Shown: positions 42,550-48,438, counted from the stretch's first letter. The stretch: 64,000 nucleotides of DNA from Hydrogenobacter hydrogenophilus (GCF_900215655.1 NZ_OBEN01000001.1:186001-250000), one strand, 5' to 3'. A program made the numbers and translations. The notes: a model not told the origin generated them from the letters alone.

Positions 42550-43974
42550 ATGTCTCGAATCTCTTTAAAGAAAAAGAACGGACTTATTGTTGATCCAAAG
42601 GAAGGATGGGACTCTGTAGCGCGTAAGGTTATCAAATTAGCACTACCTATAATACTTTCTAACTTGCTCTATACTGTGGAAAGCGCCTTTTCTATAATAC
42701 TCGTCTCTGGTCTTTCCTCAACGGCAGTGGCGGCGGTAGGTTATTCCGCAAGCATGCTCTGGTTTATATACTCCTTGATGGCTCTGTCTTATACAGGTAC
42801 ATCTGTACTTGTAGCTCAGATGACAGGCGCAAGAAAAGACCCTTCTCCTGCACTGCTTTGGGGTTTACTTATATCTTTTTTGATAGCTCTACCTCTTACT
42901 TTTGTAGGTACAGACCTGGTGACCTTTTTAATGGAAAAGTTTGGTGCATCTAAGCAGGTAGTAAGTTTAGCAAGAGACTACCTTGATCCTGTATTTGATT
43001 TCATAACTGTTGGCTTTATTACCAACACAGTGTATGCCGCTTACAACGGTTATGGGGATACAAAAACGCCCTTTCAAGTAGCCCTTCTTATGAATGTAGT
43101 CAATATATCCAGCGCCTACCTTCTAATATACGGCAACTTGGGATTTCCAAGGATGGAGGTGCGCGGTGCGGGATGGGGTATTGCACTTTCAGAATTGGTA
43201 GGCCTTTTGGCATATGTGATTCTTTATATAACAAAGAAAAAGCCCTTTCCGCTGTGCTGGGATTTTAGTAAAAGTGTGCTTTTGAGTATTCTTAGGATTG
43301 GCACTCCCACCGCTCTTGAAAGAGCTTTCTCAAGCTTATCTTTTAACATATTTGTGGGTTTTTTGGCTAGCTTTGGAGATAAGGTGCTTGCCGCTCATCA
43401 GATAGGGCTAAGGGTTGAAAGCGCTTCCTTTATGATAGGCTTCGGGTTTATGGTAGCGTCCACTACCCTTTCGGGGCAAAACTGGGGTGCGAGAAACTAC
43501 GCAGGTTTAGATTACGGCATTAGGATCACCGCTCACCTAACTGCTTTCTTGATGGGCTTTATGGGTGTATTGCTTGCTTTGTTTCCTAAGTACTTTTCTC
43601 TCATATTTACCAGAGATGTTCAGGTCATAGAGTATGCGGTTTATTATCTGGTGATAGTTGCCTTTTCCCAACCGCAGATGGCTTACGCCAGTATATATTC
43701 GGGAGCCCTCAAAGGTATGGGTAAAACTCACATACCTCTTCTCGTAAATTCAACGTCTTTTTGGGTTTTTAGGATAATACCCTCATACTTTTTACTGAAG
43801 TACTTCCATACACCTCTCGTGCCGTGGGTTTTCATGAGCGTAGAGATGACTACAAGAGCTATTATCTTCTACATAGCATACAAAAGGGAGGTGTCTAAGC
43901 TTTTGAACTGCGAAACAGAAGAAGAGAAGTGTAAAAAAGCAGACATTGAAGGAGTAAAAAGGCAAACACTTTAA
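42550..43974 (+). CDS. MATE-family multidrug/cation exporter
   Basis: 474 residues, twelve membrane segments in two halves. Family features: 'IKLALPIILSNLLYTVESAF', 'SSTAVAAVGYSASMLW', 'AYNGYGDTKTPFQ', second-half repeat 'RIGTPTALERAFSSLSFNIF' and 'AAHQIGLRVESASFMIGFGF'. Exchanges sodium or protons for organic cations. Its C-terminal end (residues ~448-474, charged) overlaps the 3' end of the membrane-protein gene on the other strand by 80 bases. Confidence 0.95.
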   Translation: MSRISLKKKNGLIVDPKEGWDSVARKVIKLALPIILSNLLYTVESAFSIILVSGLSSTAVAAVGYSASMLWFIYSLMALSYTGTSVLVAQMTGARKDPSPALLWGLLISFLIALPLTFVGTDLVTFLMEKFGASKQVVSLARDYLDPVFDFITVGFITNTVYAAYNGYGDTKTPFQVALLMNVVNISSAYLLIYGNLGFPRMEVRGAGWGIALSELVGLLAYVILYITKKKPFPLCWDFSKSVLLSILRIGTPTALERAFSSLSFNIFVGFLASFGDKVLAAHQIGLRVESASFMIGFGFMVASTTLSGQNWGARNYAGLDYGIRITAHLTAFLMGFMGVLLALFPKYFSLIFTRDVQVIEYAVYYLVIVAFSQPQMAYASIYSGALKGMGKTHIPLLVNSTSFWVFRIIPSYFLLKYFHTPLVPWVFMSVEMTTRAIIFYIAYKREVSKLLNCETEEEKCKKADIEGVKRQTL

Positions 43975-44815
43975 CAATAGCCATCTGAGGATGTACGAAC
44001 CTAATTAGAAAACCTGATAGGTTATCAAGAAAGGAAAAGAAAAAAAGGGAAAGACCTATCAGCAGTTTCTTTTTGGAGTTAGTAAAGAGAAGAAGGTGAG
44101 AAACAGTTATAGAATAAATAGCCATAGACAGAAGGTGAGGATGGAAGACTTTAAGCATACCCTCAAAGGTTTTGGGTTTGCTAAAAGTGGATGGGTTTCC
44201 CAGATAGTAGTCCTTTACATTGTCAAAGGTAAAGCCCATTTTTGAGAAAAAAACCATAAAGTTGATGCATGCAAAAACAAGTAAAAAGAAGGAAAACATC
44301 AAAAGAAGTAGCTTAATACTTGATATACCAGAAGCCTTATCCTCACCCATAAAAATGAAAAAGAGAAGCGTTAAAAGTAAAACTACACCACTTAGAATTT
44401 GGAACATAAAGAAAGAAAAGAGCTTTACGTATATGAAAAGGGGAGAAGCATAGACTATAAGGAGATCAGAAAGCACAGCAAATATGCCTGAAAAAGTAGT
44501 TCCAATAATCAAGGTAGTTTTTAGCTTTTCAGAAAAAGAAGATAGTAAAAAAAGAGAAAATAGCACCAAAATGTAAAAAGCCTTCAAAAATACATCCACA
44601 TGCATGTCTTCAGAGAGTTGCGAGAGGGATATCCTTTCAGGAAAGTTTGGGTCTCCAAAGAAGTACTTAAAACTTGATGAGTAGGTAAAACCGTATTTGT
44701 GATAAAAGTAGATCCACGAGCTTATCCAATAAAACAGTAGGAAAAGCAAAAAGGTAAGGATCAGGTAATAGAGGGGTCTGTTGCTTTTTATGTTAGCGGA
44801 TATAAAGAACCTCAT
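43895..44815 (-). CDS. Eight-segment membrane protein with an internal duplication
   Basis: 306 residues, about eight hydrophobic segments. Two copies of one pattern: half 1 'YGFTYS' (41-46), 'YFFGDP' (51-56), 'DMHVDVF' (70-76), and a last TM pair; half 2 'MGFTFD' (193-198), 'YYLGNP' (203-208), 'VFHPHLL' (223-229), then 'RFVHPQMAIVKVFAFLLLQ' (272-290). H72 aligns with H225 and D74 with H227; H275 has no partner. Histidines could bind haem b, but this is not shown. Overlaps the FMN-binding gene by 4 bases. No family recognised. Confidence 0.7.
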   Translation of the reverse strand: MRFFISANIKSNRPLYYLILTFLLFLLFYWISSWIYFYHKYGFTYSSSFKYFFGDPNFPERISLSQLSEDMHVDVFLKAFYILVLFSLFLLSSFSEKLKTTLIIGTTFSGIFAVLSDLLIVYASPLFIYVKLFSFFMFQILSGVVLLLTLLFFIFMGEDKASGISSIKLLLLMFSFFLLVFACINFMVFFSKMGFTFDNVKDYYLGNPSTFSKPKTFEGMLKVFHPHLLSMAIYSITVSHLLLFTNSKKKLLIGLSLFFFSFLDNLSGFLIRFVHPQMAIVKVFAFLLLQCLLFYTSLLLFRSSKA

Positions 44816-45366
44816 CTTTCACCTCCAAAGATCACCTGCCACATGGCAAGAACCTTTCTTGTGTTATCGGTGATGGCTTTTGATGTAAGTGTAGCACCTG
44901 TCATGTTGGGTATGTCCTTTCTGAGTCTTATACTGTCTGGTGTTAGCATCTTCCCTTTAAAGATCTTTAGCCAGTTTTCATCAGGCATGTACTCAAGAGG
45001 CTCGTTGAAAGAAAGCACCTCTATTAGGTCTATCTTACCTTCTGGTGTTATGGTGTATAGCACTACCTCAGGATGGGTTCTGACCGTGTGTGTGTCTATG
45101 TATGCGTATCCTACTATAGAATTTCCTCTTTTGGCTATATACCAAGATACGAGCCTTGTGTTTAGTTTTACGCCAGAGAGCTTTTCTATATTTTCCACCT
45201 GTAGTTTTGAAAGTACTATGTTTTTAACCTCTATACTTGCACCCGGAAAGGCGTCTTTGAGAGCCTGCTGTGGGGTTTTGAAATCTCTTGCAGAACTATC
45301 TATCGCAAAAGAGATAAAACAAAAGAATACGATAAATAAAGCACACCACCTACACATGCTTAACAT
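44812..45366 (-). CDS. Exported FMN-binding protein (RnfG/NqrC-like domain)
   Basis: 184 residues. Hydrophobic N-terminal signal (about 5-22), then an FMN-binding domain with the flavinylation motif TGATLT at 156-161 (T159 being the likely attachment site by ApbE-type enzymes), inside 'MTGATLTSKAITDNTRK'. Works on the outer side of the membrane, passing electrons. Sits in the operon porin-dihaem lipoprotein-FMN protein-membrane protein, 10 bases from the preceding gene and overlapping the next by 4. No apbE is in the window. Confidence 0.85.
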   Translation of the reverse strand: MLSMCRWCALFIVFFCFISFAIDSSARDFKTPQQALKDAFPGASIEVKNIVLSKLQVENIEKLSGVKLNTRLVSWYIAKRGNSIVGYAYIDTHTVRTHPEVVLYTITPEGKIDLIEVLSFNEPLEYMPDENWLKIFKGKMLTPDSIRLRKDIPNMTGATLTSKAITDNTRKVLAMWQVIFGGER

Positions 45367-45376
45367 ATTTTAATCC

Positions 45377-47005
45377 CTACTTTAAGAACAGAATAGTCTT
45401 TATGATTGCCCATATGCCAGCTTCCTTTATTCCAGTGCTTTCTACCGCATCAAGTCTTTCTAAAGAGTTTCCACCAGATGAAATGCCAAAGGGTCTATCA
45501 AAAACATCCCTTCCAAAGATGAACCCTTGAGCACTTACCACTCTCATGTACTGTTTGTCTATACCGTATGCACGTTCAGGTGAAGGAAGAAAAAGCTCAG
45601 GCTTTATATAGCCTTCATCATCCAGATAGTTTATAAGGTTTGGGTTTGTGATAATGTTGTCCTGGGGTGAAAGTATGAGGGATATTTTGTTAATATCTTT
45701 GCTTATCCTTGGGAGTATCTCTTGGTTGCTTCTGAAGTGATCTCCTCCGTTGGTCATTGAAAAGTAGAGCTGATACTCTCCCTTTACAAAAGGTAAAATC
45801 CTTTTAATTTCAGGTCCTATGTTTCCTTCTAAGCTTGCGTAAGTCCAGTCTTTTATGTTTTTTACTACAAGGTTGTAATCCTGCTCCATCCATCCTTTTG
45901 CTCCTGGCACCTTACGCCAGTAAGTAAAAGTGGCATCCACACTTCCACCTATAGACCCATGACACGCTATGCAAAACTTCATTTCCTGAGCATTTTGAGG
46001 TCGTAGCTTTCCGTCTTTGTCCTCTATAAATCCCACCATAAGCCAGTTTTTGCTCGCATTAAAAACAGCCCCTTTATCCCAGAAAAAGCCTTCTTCTTCC
46101 TCTTCCTGCTCTTTCCTTTTTTCTGCGTAAGCTAATTTCCTCATATACCTCATTTCCCTTATCCTAAGAGATTTGAAGGATATGGTGTTTTGAGGGTCAA
46201 GATAGTAGATGGGATGAGCAAATTCTGTTCCGGGTGGGTATTGGTAAGTTATGACGGGCACACTACTTGCGTCTCCCTCGTACCGATCCGGCATGATGAA
46301 GTCTCCTACCTCTGTATCACTACACAGATTACCCGGACTAACTCCTTTTATGGCACACTCAACTATGGCTAAGTTTTTCTTGTAAGTGGCTTTGTCAAAG
46401 TTCCCTCCTTTTTCTCTGAAAGGTCTGTCAAGCCTTATAAAGGTGGAATCTATTCTGCCGTTGGTGGGGAAAAAGCCCGGAAAAGGTTTCCACTTGAAGA
46501 CTCGCCATCCCGTGCTACCTACAAAACCTTCACTGTCTATATTAACAAGCTGATAAGCTCCACCGCTGTATGTATATATGGGTGGAAGGTCAGGAAAGTA
46601 CTTGAGATCTCCTTCTCCCCTCTTCTGATAAGCCGCCATCCAGTTGTCCTGTCTTATGTAGCTTTGCACTTGTGCATCAGAAGGCATAGGAATACCAGCA
46701 AGGGTAAGGTCAGGTCTTGTGGCGTTTAGCCAAGGATTACCTAACTTCAGTATTTCTCTTGGAAAAGAGTACTTGAGCGTCAGATCAAAGTCTGTCTTTT
46801 CGTTGGCATAGGGTGTGTTTGCCTGAGTGTGGCACACATAACACGGGTTTGCTATAGCCCTACTGTATCTGACTATACCTGTATCCGTATAGCACTCAAG
46901 GGGTATGTTAGGCTCAGGGTTGGTAAAATTCGTAATCTCTTCTTTACCCCCTCCTCCCCCACACGCATAAAGGAAAAGTGCAGAAAGTAGAAAAACCCTC
47001 TTCAT
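45377..47005 (-). CDS. Dihaem cytochrome c lipoprotein
   Basis: 542 residues. Lipobox ends at C15 ('LYAC'), followed by five glycines. Two CxxCH haem motifs: C55-C58-H59 (CYVCH) and C345-C348-H349 (CIACH). Between them are an acidic run (EEEEEE near 300-305), many aromatic and proline residues ('FPDLPPIYTYSGG') and few methionines. Likely outer-membrane-anchored, electron-transferring. AGGAGG upstream; 12 bases after the porin. A large low-haem-density cytochrome of unknown partner. Confidence 0.85.
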   Translation of the reverse strand: MKRVFLLSALFLYACGGGGGKEEITNFTNPEPNIPLECYTDTGIVRYSRAIANPCYVCHTQANTPYANEKTDFDLTLKYSFPREILKLGNPWLNATRPDLTLAGIPMPSDAQVQSYIRQDNWMAAYQKRGEGDLKYFPDLPPIYTYSGGAYQLVNIDSEGFVGSTGWRVFKWKPFPGFFPTNGRIDSTFIRLDRPFREKGGNFDKATYKKNLAIVECAIKGVSPGNLCSDTEVGDFIMPDRYEGDASSVPVITYQYPPGTEFAHPIYYLDPQNTISFKSLRIREMRYMRKLAYAEKRKEQEEEEEGFFWDKGAVFNASKNWLMVGFIEDKDGKLRPQNAQEMKFCIACHGSIGGSVDATFTYWRKVPGAKGWMEQDYNLVVKNIKDWTYASLEGNIGPEIKRILPFVKGEYQLYFSMTNGGDHFRSNQEILPRISKDINKISLILSPQDNIITNPNLINYLDDEGYIKPELFLPSPERAYGIDKQYMRVVSAQGFIFGRDVFDRPFGISSGGNSLERLDAVESTGIKEAGIWAIIKTILFLK

Positions 47006-47017
47006 GAAACCTCCTCC

Positions 47018-48373
47018 CTAAAACATCCATCCAAGAGCTAATCTGTAGATGTTTTGCTTTTTGGCATCTTTTGGTGAAAAGCGCACATAGTCTGCCTTTA
47101 GTGCTACAAGTGGGTGAGGCTTGTAAGAAATACCCACATTAAAAACCTGCACCTTACGTCCTGAAGGTTTTTCAAAGCCATCTGGCACGCTTGCGTGCGT
47201 GTTGTAGTTTTCGTAAATACCAAACACATAAAGCTGTTGGTCCGAGATCTTCAGAAATCTAAATACATCGTAAGCTAACTGAGTATAAAAGCCGTAAAAC
47301 TTTTTGGGAAATGTGGTACACTTAGCTGTATCACCAAGTTGGCATGCTGGGTTTGTACTTATCTCTTGAGATATCTTATCCGCTCCAGAAGTAGTTCCGT
47401 ATGCTCCCACAAACCTCACATCCCATCCACCATACTGCCACCAAAGGTGAGGTGAAAGAAGATTTAGATTTCCAAGCTTTTTACCTTTTTCGTCCTGCAC
47501 ACCACCAAAAAATCCACTCACTCCTACTTTTAAGTTATACGGAAGGTTATAATCAAACCTTCCAGAAAAGGCTATCTGATCAGAGACCGCTTTGAAGCCT
47601 TTCTGTTTAAAGCCTTGCAAAAGCTGTCCATTCTCAACTTTTTCTCCGGCTTCCTCATTGGGTTTTAGGCCGTTGGTGATGTAAGCTCTGTACTCAAGTT
47701 TCTCTAACTTTCCGTAAGCTCCAAAACCAAGCTCGCGCCAAGTTGTAGGTATTATGTTCCTTTCAAGAAAAGGCCTGTCCACACTGGGAAAGGTAGGAGG
47801 CTCGTGATACTCGTTGATGATCCCTACAGGAATAAGAATAAGACCGCCTCTCAATCCTAACTTTTCGTTAAAGCTGTAATCTATAAAGGCAAATTCCACT
47901 GCAGTCTCACCACTTTCTTCTTCCCCCTCGACAAAAGCGTGCTCCCACTCAATTTCTGAATTAAACTTTAGCTTTTCGTTGAAGGCATAACCAAAGTAAA
48001 GTATTAACCTTTTGGCATCCACTGTATTCTTGGGCTTTTTATCAGGATTGTGAAGAAAGTGGATCTCTCCATACCCGCCTATGGAAACACCCTTAGGATT
48101 AAATAGTGCCTTGGACGCGGCAGGTCCCAATCCAGAATAAGACTTGATTTCAAGTTGAGGCATCGCTATTTCAAGCCTAAGCTTTCTTATCTCTTCTTTG
48201 AGCACATCTGTTTCCTGCCTAACTTCCTCAGTTTTCTTTTGTTCTTCTTTTAGCTTCTGAATTTCCTGCTGAAGAGTCCTTATCTGCTCTTCTAATTGTC
48301 TTATTTTTTCCTCGGTAGGCTGTGCTACAGCTATTGTAGAAAAGAGGGCTGAAATCAGAAGTGCCTTCTTCAT
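47018..48373 (-). CDS. Outer-membrane porin with N-terminal coiled coil
   Basis: 451 residues. Signal peptide (1-17, ends VAQ), a coiled-coil of about 60 residues ('EEKIRQLEEQIRTLQQEIQK' and following) like the S-layer-homology/trimerisation stalk of Thermotoga-type porins, and a beta-barrel with alternating aromatic strands, ending in the terminal phenylalanine (LGWMF) recognised by the Bam machinery. One internal C..C pair ('CQLGDTAKC'). First gene of the operon, driven by the promoter/operator at 48399-48438. Confidence 0.85.
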   Translation of the reverse strand: MKKALLISALFSTIAVAQPTEEKIRQLEEQIRTLQQEIQKLKEEQKKTEEVRQETDVLKEEIRKLRLEIAMPQLEIKSYSGLGPAASKALFNPKGVSIGGYGEIHFLHNPDKKPKNTVDAKRLILYFGYAFNEKLKFNSEIEWEHAFVEGEEESGETAVEFAFIDYSFNEKLGLRGGLILIPVGIINEYHEPPTFPSVDRPFLERNIIPTTWRELGFGAYGKLEKLEYRAYITNGLKPNEEAGEKVENGQLLQGFKQKGFKAVSDQIAFSGRFDYNLPYNLKVGVSGFFGGVQDEKGKKLGNLNLLSPHLWWQYGGWDVRFVGAYGTTSGADKISQEISTNPACQLGDTAKCTTFPKKFYGFYTQLAYDVFRFLKISDQQLYVFGIYENYNTHASVPDGFEKPSGRKVQVFNVGISYKPHPLVALKADYVRFSPKDAKKQNIYRLALGWMF

Positions 48374-48398
48374 TCTCTATACCTCCTGTATTGAGATT

Positions 48399-48415
48399 TA
48401 ATATCAACGATATTA
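48399..48415. promoter_or_regulatory. 17-bp palindrome overlapping the -10 box, candidate operator
   Basis: TAATATC-AAC-GATATTA: perfect 7-base arms around 3 bases. On the minus strand its first six bases are the -10 box TAATAT (48410-48415), so it covers about -12 to +5 of the porin operon promoter. A protein bound there would block RNA polymerase. Confidence 0.6.
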
Positions 48416-48438
48416 CAAAAATTGAAACCTGATGTCAA
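48410..48438 (-). promoter_or_regulatory. Sigma-70-type promoter of the porin-cytochrome-FMN operon
   Basis: TTGACA (48433-48438), 17-base spacer (48416-48432), TAATAT (48410-48415). +1 near 48403; a 30-base leader contains AGGAGG, 8 bases before the ATG at 48373. The best consensus promoter in the window. Confidence 0.75.

Follow-up and report, generated by a model that had tools for sequence, protein, structure and literature searches.

A conserved, probably iron-regulated operon for a porin, a flavin-binding protein and a duplicated membrane protein in Hydrogenobacter hydrogenophilus

Relationship to known electron transfer systems

Flavinylation-based systems for extracytosolic electron transfer have been divided into five transmembrane classes, which are NapH-, MsrQ-, PepSY-, DsbD-, and NQR/RNF-like (Meheust et al. 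2021, PMC8238504). The flavin attachment motif is [S/T]GA[S/T], and in some other systems flavinylated proteins have been connected to the assimilation of iron and to control by Fur (PMC8238504). Here, a four-gene operon was analysed in a stretch of 64,000 nucleotides from Hydrogenobacter hydrogenophilus (GCF_900215655.1, NZ_OBEN01000001.1:186001-250000; hereafter the window, with positions counted from its first letter). The operon encodes a porin, a dihaem lipoprotein, a flavin mononucleotide (FMN)-binding protein and a duplicated membrane protein. Flavinylation-based extracytosolic electron transfer is its closest known kind, and the new element is the membrane-protein family, which has no Pfam or NCBIfam match. 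Both share an exported FMN_bind protein with an attachment motif, a membrane protein and the flavin transferase ApbE in one neighbourhood; some of the known classes are also iron- or Fur-linked. The operon differs in that its membrane protein lies outside the class-defining families, it regularly includes an OprO/P-like porin, and a P460-like dihaem lipoprotein is optional. No published description of this gene set was found in the main texts of open-licence papers.

The operon also resembles the porin-cytochrome conduits (Geobacter Pcc, PMC4245776; Mtr), in which an outer-membrane barrel stands beside an outer-membrane-type haem lipoprotein. In the Geobacter Pcc conduit, the periplasmic cytochrome carries 8 haems and the outer one 12 (PMC4245776), whereas here there are two CxxCH haems, one of them P460-like; the porin often occurs without a cytochrome, and no multihaem cytochrome able to span the membrane is present. 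Because the haem protein is optional and has only two haems, the operon lacks the feature that defines a porin-cytochrome conduit. The second haem domain shows a weak profile and fold resemblance to cytochrome P460 and cytochrome c' beta; unlike these, the protein is a 542-residue lipoprotein with an extra CxxCH domain, and it falls below the Pfam cut-off. Campylobacterota, Gammaproteobacteria, and Leptospiraceae have homologues that span the whole lipoprotein at 30-37% identity and keep both haem motifs without exception, but these are located behind a PhoX gene, and FMN and membrane genes are not beside them. Francisella FupA, an outer-membrane ferrous iron transport protein described as a porin (PMC7432831), is likewise an outer-membrane porin for iron transport; this is an analogy only.

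The conserved core and its operator-like sites

The original prediction placed four tightly packed genes at 43895-48373, and four open reading frames were found exactly there on the minus strand. These are the porin gene (47018..48373, 451 residues), the dihaem lipoprotein gene (45377..47005, 542 residues), the FMN-binding protein gene (44812..45366, 184 residues), and the membrane-protein gene (43895..44815, 306 residues), separated in this order by 12, 10, and -4 bases. The complete order is present in five genomes of the genus (H. hydrogenophilus included), and also in three genomes outside it (G012, G007, and G048), where the neighbours are different. The neighbourhood is not due to chance, since other genera repeat this order amid different flanking genes. 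Neither the DUF2229 gene upstream nor the convergent gene for a MATE transporter was counted as an operon member; both were found alongside only within the genus. The membrane-protein gene and the MATE gene share 80 bases (43895-43974) at the 3' end of the former.

The conserved unit is composed of the porin, the FMN-binding protein, and the membrane protein, often with ApbE. The lipoprotein is an optional insert in this three-gene core, because genomes without it often retain the other three genes in unchanged order, several of them with ApbE. Protein searches of 61 related genomes found the lipoprotein in 17 and the membrane protein in 40; across the Aquificota, the membrane protein occurs in 69 of 136 genomes. 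ApbE adjoins the unit in many genomes, and feoA/feoB adjoin the operon in G048 and G007. In the H. hydrogenophilus genome, ApbE is encoded elsewhere as a single copy (G000:C4:7940-8656, 155.7 bits). Among 200 sampled Campylobacterota, 13 have the membrane protein, and ApbE is nearby in each of the 12 neighbourhoods that were retrieved. In Sulfurimonas and Sulfurovum, the genes for the porin, the FMN protein, two half membrane proteins, and ApbE have a matching relative order, as identified with a profile of the second membrane half. A five-haem cytochrome of 366-367 residues directly follows the membrane genes in four Campylobacterota versions (L232, L234, L235, and L236).

These distributions bear on the role given to the lipoprotein. 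Many otherwise identical operons lack it, so one obligate conduit made of all four genes was rejected. The lipoprotein is not an essential wire, as many genomes have a complete unit of porin, FMN protein, and membrane protein in its absence. The puzzle raised earlier, that two haems are too few to cross a membrane, lapses as the lipoprotein is optional in the unit. Whether homologues of the four genes are routinely unlinked has a divided answer: several genomes have the lipoprotein gene apart from the others, and elsewhere its family is linked to PhoX, whereas the porin, FMN, and membrane genes stay together in many genomes.

Promoter analysis identified a sigma-70-type site (TTGACA-17-TAATAT, 48410..48438, minus strand; 10/12 match) as the top-scoring one of the region. 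Around this promoter lie two dyads of 17 bp with the form TTGAnATnnnATnTCAA, overlapping or flanking it. Dyad 1 (minus-strand TTGACATCAGGTTTCAA, 48422..48438) overlaps the -35 element; dyad 2 (minus-strand TTGATATTAAATCTCAA, 48391..48407) is a perfect match and lies just downstream of the -10 element. The TTGA-N9-TCAA spacing is that of Fur boxes. With up to two mismatches, the dyad was found no more than 100 bp from where the porin or FMN gene starts at 22 of 23 Aquificota loci, where shuffling gives an expectation of 0.85. It also precedes feoA/feoB in 15 of 16 genomes (0.45 expected by shuffling), a set that covers nine genera of related genomes, whose counts are not fully independent. In G011, the porin-lipoprotein and FMN-membrane loci are apart, yet both carry the dyad. 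Several Aquificota also have genes for small exported proteins, probably of barrel type, beside feoA and feoB or between them (L199:2826-3539, L205:3217-3936, and L210:1461-2213); two were tested and had no Pfam match.

The sites upstream of the Campylobacterota porins resemble the classical Fur box, such as ACTGATAATAATTATCATT with one mismatch. In one set of loci from this phylum, all 11 that include a porin carry a site differing from TTGATAATNATTATCAA or AATGATAATNATTATCATT by one to three mismatches, and good Fur-type sites occur at two loci of a separate set of three, the third being L224. Iron-type regulation of the operon through this putative operator is well supported by comparative genomics. 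A pattern search of the whole H. hydrogenophilus genome, with a reversed-pattern control, found two perfect dyads, one before this operon and one before a DUF2325 gene. The case rests on the conserved position of the dyad in many genomes, because the counts within this genome are near the control and its own feoA site is imperfect. Taken together, the four-gene operon is real and conserved, and it is probably iron-regulated.

Features of the four proteins

The exported FMN-binding protein matches Pfam FMN_bind (PF04205; 27.5 bits, cut-off 22) and is RnfG-like. A predicted flavin attachment motif, TGAT, is located at residues 156-159 (44890..44901, minus strand) and fits the [S/T]GA[S/T] pattern; G157 and T159 are kept in 29 of 30 orthologues. 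The protein is a predicted ApbE substrate, and it may act as a flavinylated electron-transfer protein.

The membrane protein had been described as duplicated, and its two four-helix halves do align with each other (27% identity, E=2e-7). The halves are also separate adjacent half-size genes in several Hydrogenothermaceae. The 306-residue protein gave no Pfam or NCBIfam match at E<=1, and lies outside the Pfam families that define the known classes of flavinylated systems (NapH, MsrQ, PepSY, DsbD, and NqrB/RnfD). Searches of the PDB with its profile found no credible relative. Orthologue alignment showed that H72, H227, and H240 are invariant. Given the eight predicted helices and the charged cytoplasmic loops, H72 and H227 might lie close to the periplasm, a conjecture that would suit a haem b facing the FMN protein.

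The porin was expected to be an outer-membrane barrel with a coiled-coil stalk, and the signal peptide, the coiled coil, and the C-terminal aromatic residue agree with this. The window porin itself has no barrel match in Pfam (PF07396 included) and gives mainly coiled-coil matches; the OprO/OprP-type assignment comes from its Campylobacterota orthologues, which pass Porin_O_P (PF07396) with 34.0 and 25.2 bits against a cut-off of 20.9. On the porin tree, the presence of an adjacent lipoprotein requires about four changes, compared with 9.3 when the labels are shuffled. In G048, which belongs to another family, the porin and the lipoprotein are Hydrogenobacter-like (79-91%; 80% and 91% to the nearest), whereas the closest relatives of its FMN and membrane proteins lie in the host's own genus (65% and 48%). 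Because these two proteins, unlike the other two, resemble those of Hydrogenobacter, the porin and the lipoprotein appear to have been transferred together as a pair. The G048 operon (L024) is chimeric in this sense, with a Hydrogenobacter-type porin and lipoprotein and host-genus FMN and membrane genes. An in-frame lipoprotein-porin fusion (L036:9439-12162, 907 residues, OprB domain) was not used as evidence, because at this locus the porin is also split and the FMN and membrane ORFs are shortened, which may point to a misassembled or decayed locus.

A lipobox (LYAC15) and a pair of CxxCH motifs in the lipoprotein agree with the dihaem lipoprotein of the original prediction. The first haem-binding motif is CYVCH (residues 55-59; 46829..46843, minus strand), and the second is CIACH (residues 345-349; 45959..45973, minus strand); C55, C58, H59, C345, C348, and H349 do not vary among 58 aligned homologues. 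AlphaFold2 gave a confident model (pLDDT 89, pTM 0.89). Foldseek ranked cytochrome P460 and cytochrome c' beta first for this model, as weak and partial matches (E=0.1, TMt 0.43). The cytochrome P460 profile is matched by 46 of the 58 family members at E<=0.01; the window protein scores 19.8 bits, below the Pfam cut-off of 27. These comparisons suggest a weak resemblance of the second haem domain to cytochrome P460. Searches of the PDB with the lipoprotein profile found no credible relative.

The lipoprotein family is large; in the named genome collection, 140 candidate stretches were confirmed, and 80 were kept. Outside the Aquificota, a PhoX-type protein is encoded at 60 of 68 kept loci, nearly always immediately upstream. 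No name was found for these PhoX-lipoprotein pairs (L049-L117, e.g. L055:2191-5753 and L090:4383-9548). A CCP/MauG-type trihaem protein comes after the pair in some Campylobacterota, and a barrel-like protein lies in between in the Leptospiraceae. No PhoX match was found in the H. hydrogenophilus genome, and a search upstream of the PhoX-lipoprotein pairs outside the Aquificota found no consistent Fur boxes. The role of the lipoprotein is the least certain part of the mechanism proposed below.

Possible functions of the operon

The explanation that we favour, and consider probable, is that the operon is an iron-starvation-induced, flavin-based module for reductive iron uptake that feeds Fe(II) to FeoB. 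When iron is scarce, a Fur-family repressor would leave the two promoter dyads, and the genes would be expressed. Electrons might then pass from the quinone pool to the membrane protein, perhaps via haem b on the invariant histidines, and on to the periplasmic FMN protein, on which ApbE is predicted to place covalent FMN. Fe(III) would come in by way of the OprO/P-like porin and be reduced by the reduced flavin protein, and FeoB would import the Fe(II), as suggested by the shared operator and by gene adjacency in two genomes. The dihaem lipoprotein may have joined later as an optional companion of the porin; it is probably anchored in the outer membrane, where it could add a haem redox or gas-binding step. 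Iron acquisition is preferred because the operator is common to feoAB and Fur-box-like sites occur in a second phylum. The core order is kept amid unrelated flanks in Aquificota, and with split membrane genes and ApbE in Campylobacterota; ApbE is often adjacent, and feoA/feoB adjoin the operon in two genomes. The dyads at both separated loci of G011, the published ties of flavinylated proteins to iron assimilation, and the apparent joint transfer of porin and lipoprotein in G048 also count in its favour.

Several observations weigh against this explanation, besides the relatedness of the genomes. Dyads with at most one mismatch number eight in the H. hydrogenophilus genome and six for the reversed pattern; the feoA site of this genome has two mismatches, and dyad 1 is partly the -35 element itself. 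The Sulfurimonas locus L224 has no Fur-type site upstream, and the near-identical L240 and L241 have only sites with three mismatches to the Fur box (p ~0.03). The genome contains two Fur-family genes, and the regulator could be PerR or another member. The second perfect dyad, just upstream of the DUF2325 gene (contig C7, L134:3427-3788), would fit PerR, as a Campylobacter relative of this gene is PerR-regulated (PMC9426514). A one-mismatch dyad also precedes an OEP/CusB-type metal-efflux operon located after ftsZ (L135:3661-6232). The structure model of the membrane protein is unusable (pLDDT 54), and contact with haem b and quinone is conjecture. The chemistry, the direction of electron flow, and the metal are all inferred. 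A DUF2325 relative was also observed directly before the porin operon in G012 (L027:6078-6380).

The original prediction, that electrons could move from the inner membrane to the cell exterior or outer membrane, is partly supported. Envelope electron transfer is plausible, with an ApbE-type FMN protein beside a multi-helix membrane protein that has three invariant histidines; the operators point to iron acquisition rather than general respiration to the outside. A trans-outer-membrane conduit for respiration, running from the membrane protein through the FMN protein to the dihaem lipoprotein in or at the porin, and then to minerals or partner cells, would explain why every part of an inner-to-outer path is present and adjacent. 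The apparent movement of the porin and the lipoprotein as a pair, and the five-haem cytochrome beside the membrane genes in four Campylobacterota versions, are also consistent with it. However, many genomes have the complete unit without any haem protein, the lipoprotein family is elsewhere paired with PhoX, and the iron-type operators suggest assimilation rather than respiration, so that this conduit is considered improbable.

The regulatory sites admit other readings as well. The perfect dyad before the DUF2325 gene, the two Fur-family regulators, and the likeness of the second haem domain to P460/c' beta might together indicate a PerR-type module for oxidative or nitrosative stress, in which the P460-like lipoprotein binds nitric oxide (NO) or hydroxylamine and electrons from the FMN and membrane proteins serve envelope repair or detoxification. 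The same dyad is present before feoA/feoB in 15 of the 16 genomes tested, however, the Campylobacterota sites are near-canonical Fur boxes, and no recurrent peroxidase or NO enzyme was seen among the neighbourhoods inspected; a stress function has a comparably small chance of being correct. Porin_O_P homology is not specific for iron, and the dyad-like site ahead of the metal-efflux-type operon could be taken to indicate uptake of another substrate or metal, on which the redox proteins would act. This is also unlikely, given that the operator is common with feoAB and that no recurrent phosphate or other transporter was seen adjoining the unit.

Returning to reductive iron uptake, the membrane protein might found a new transmembrane electron-carrier class that relies on haem b or quinone. 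It would supply periplasmic proteins bearing covalent flavin, so that iron can be reduced, and would work alongside a dedicated porin both in deep-branching thermophiles and in sulfur-oxidising Campylobacterota. Interchangeable haem proteins, either the P460-like lipoprotein or the five-haem cytochrome, would have been added per lineage. This broader proposal is tentative, and we hold it at somewhat less than even confidence. Iron acquisition across two membranes by hot-spring and vent autotrophs is little studied. If the favoured explanation is true, an iron-regulated gene set would recur across two phyla, with candidate parts (the membrane family, the flavinylated protein, and the dedicated porin) that could be tested singly. 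It would also extend the link between flavinylation and iron uptake, with haem proteins as exchangeable modules added to a flavin system.

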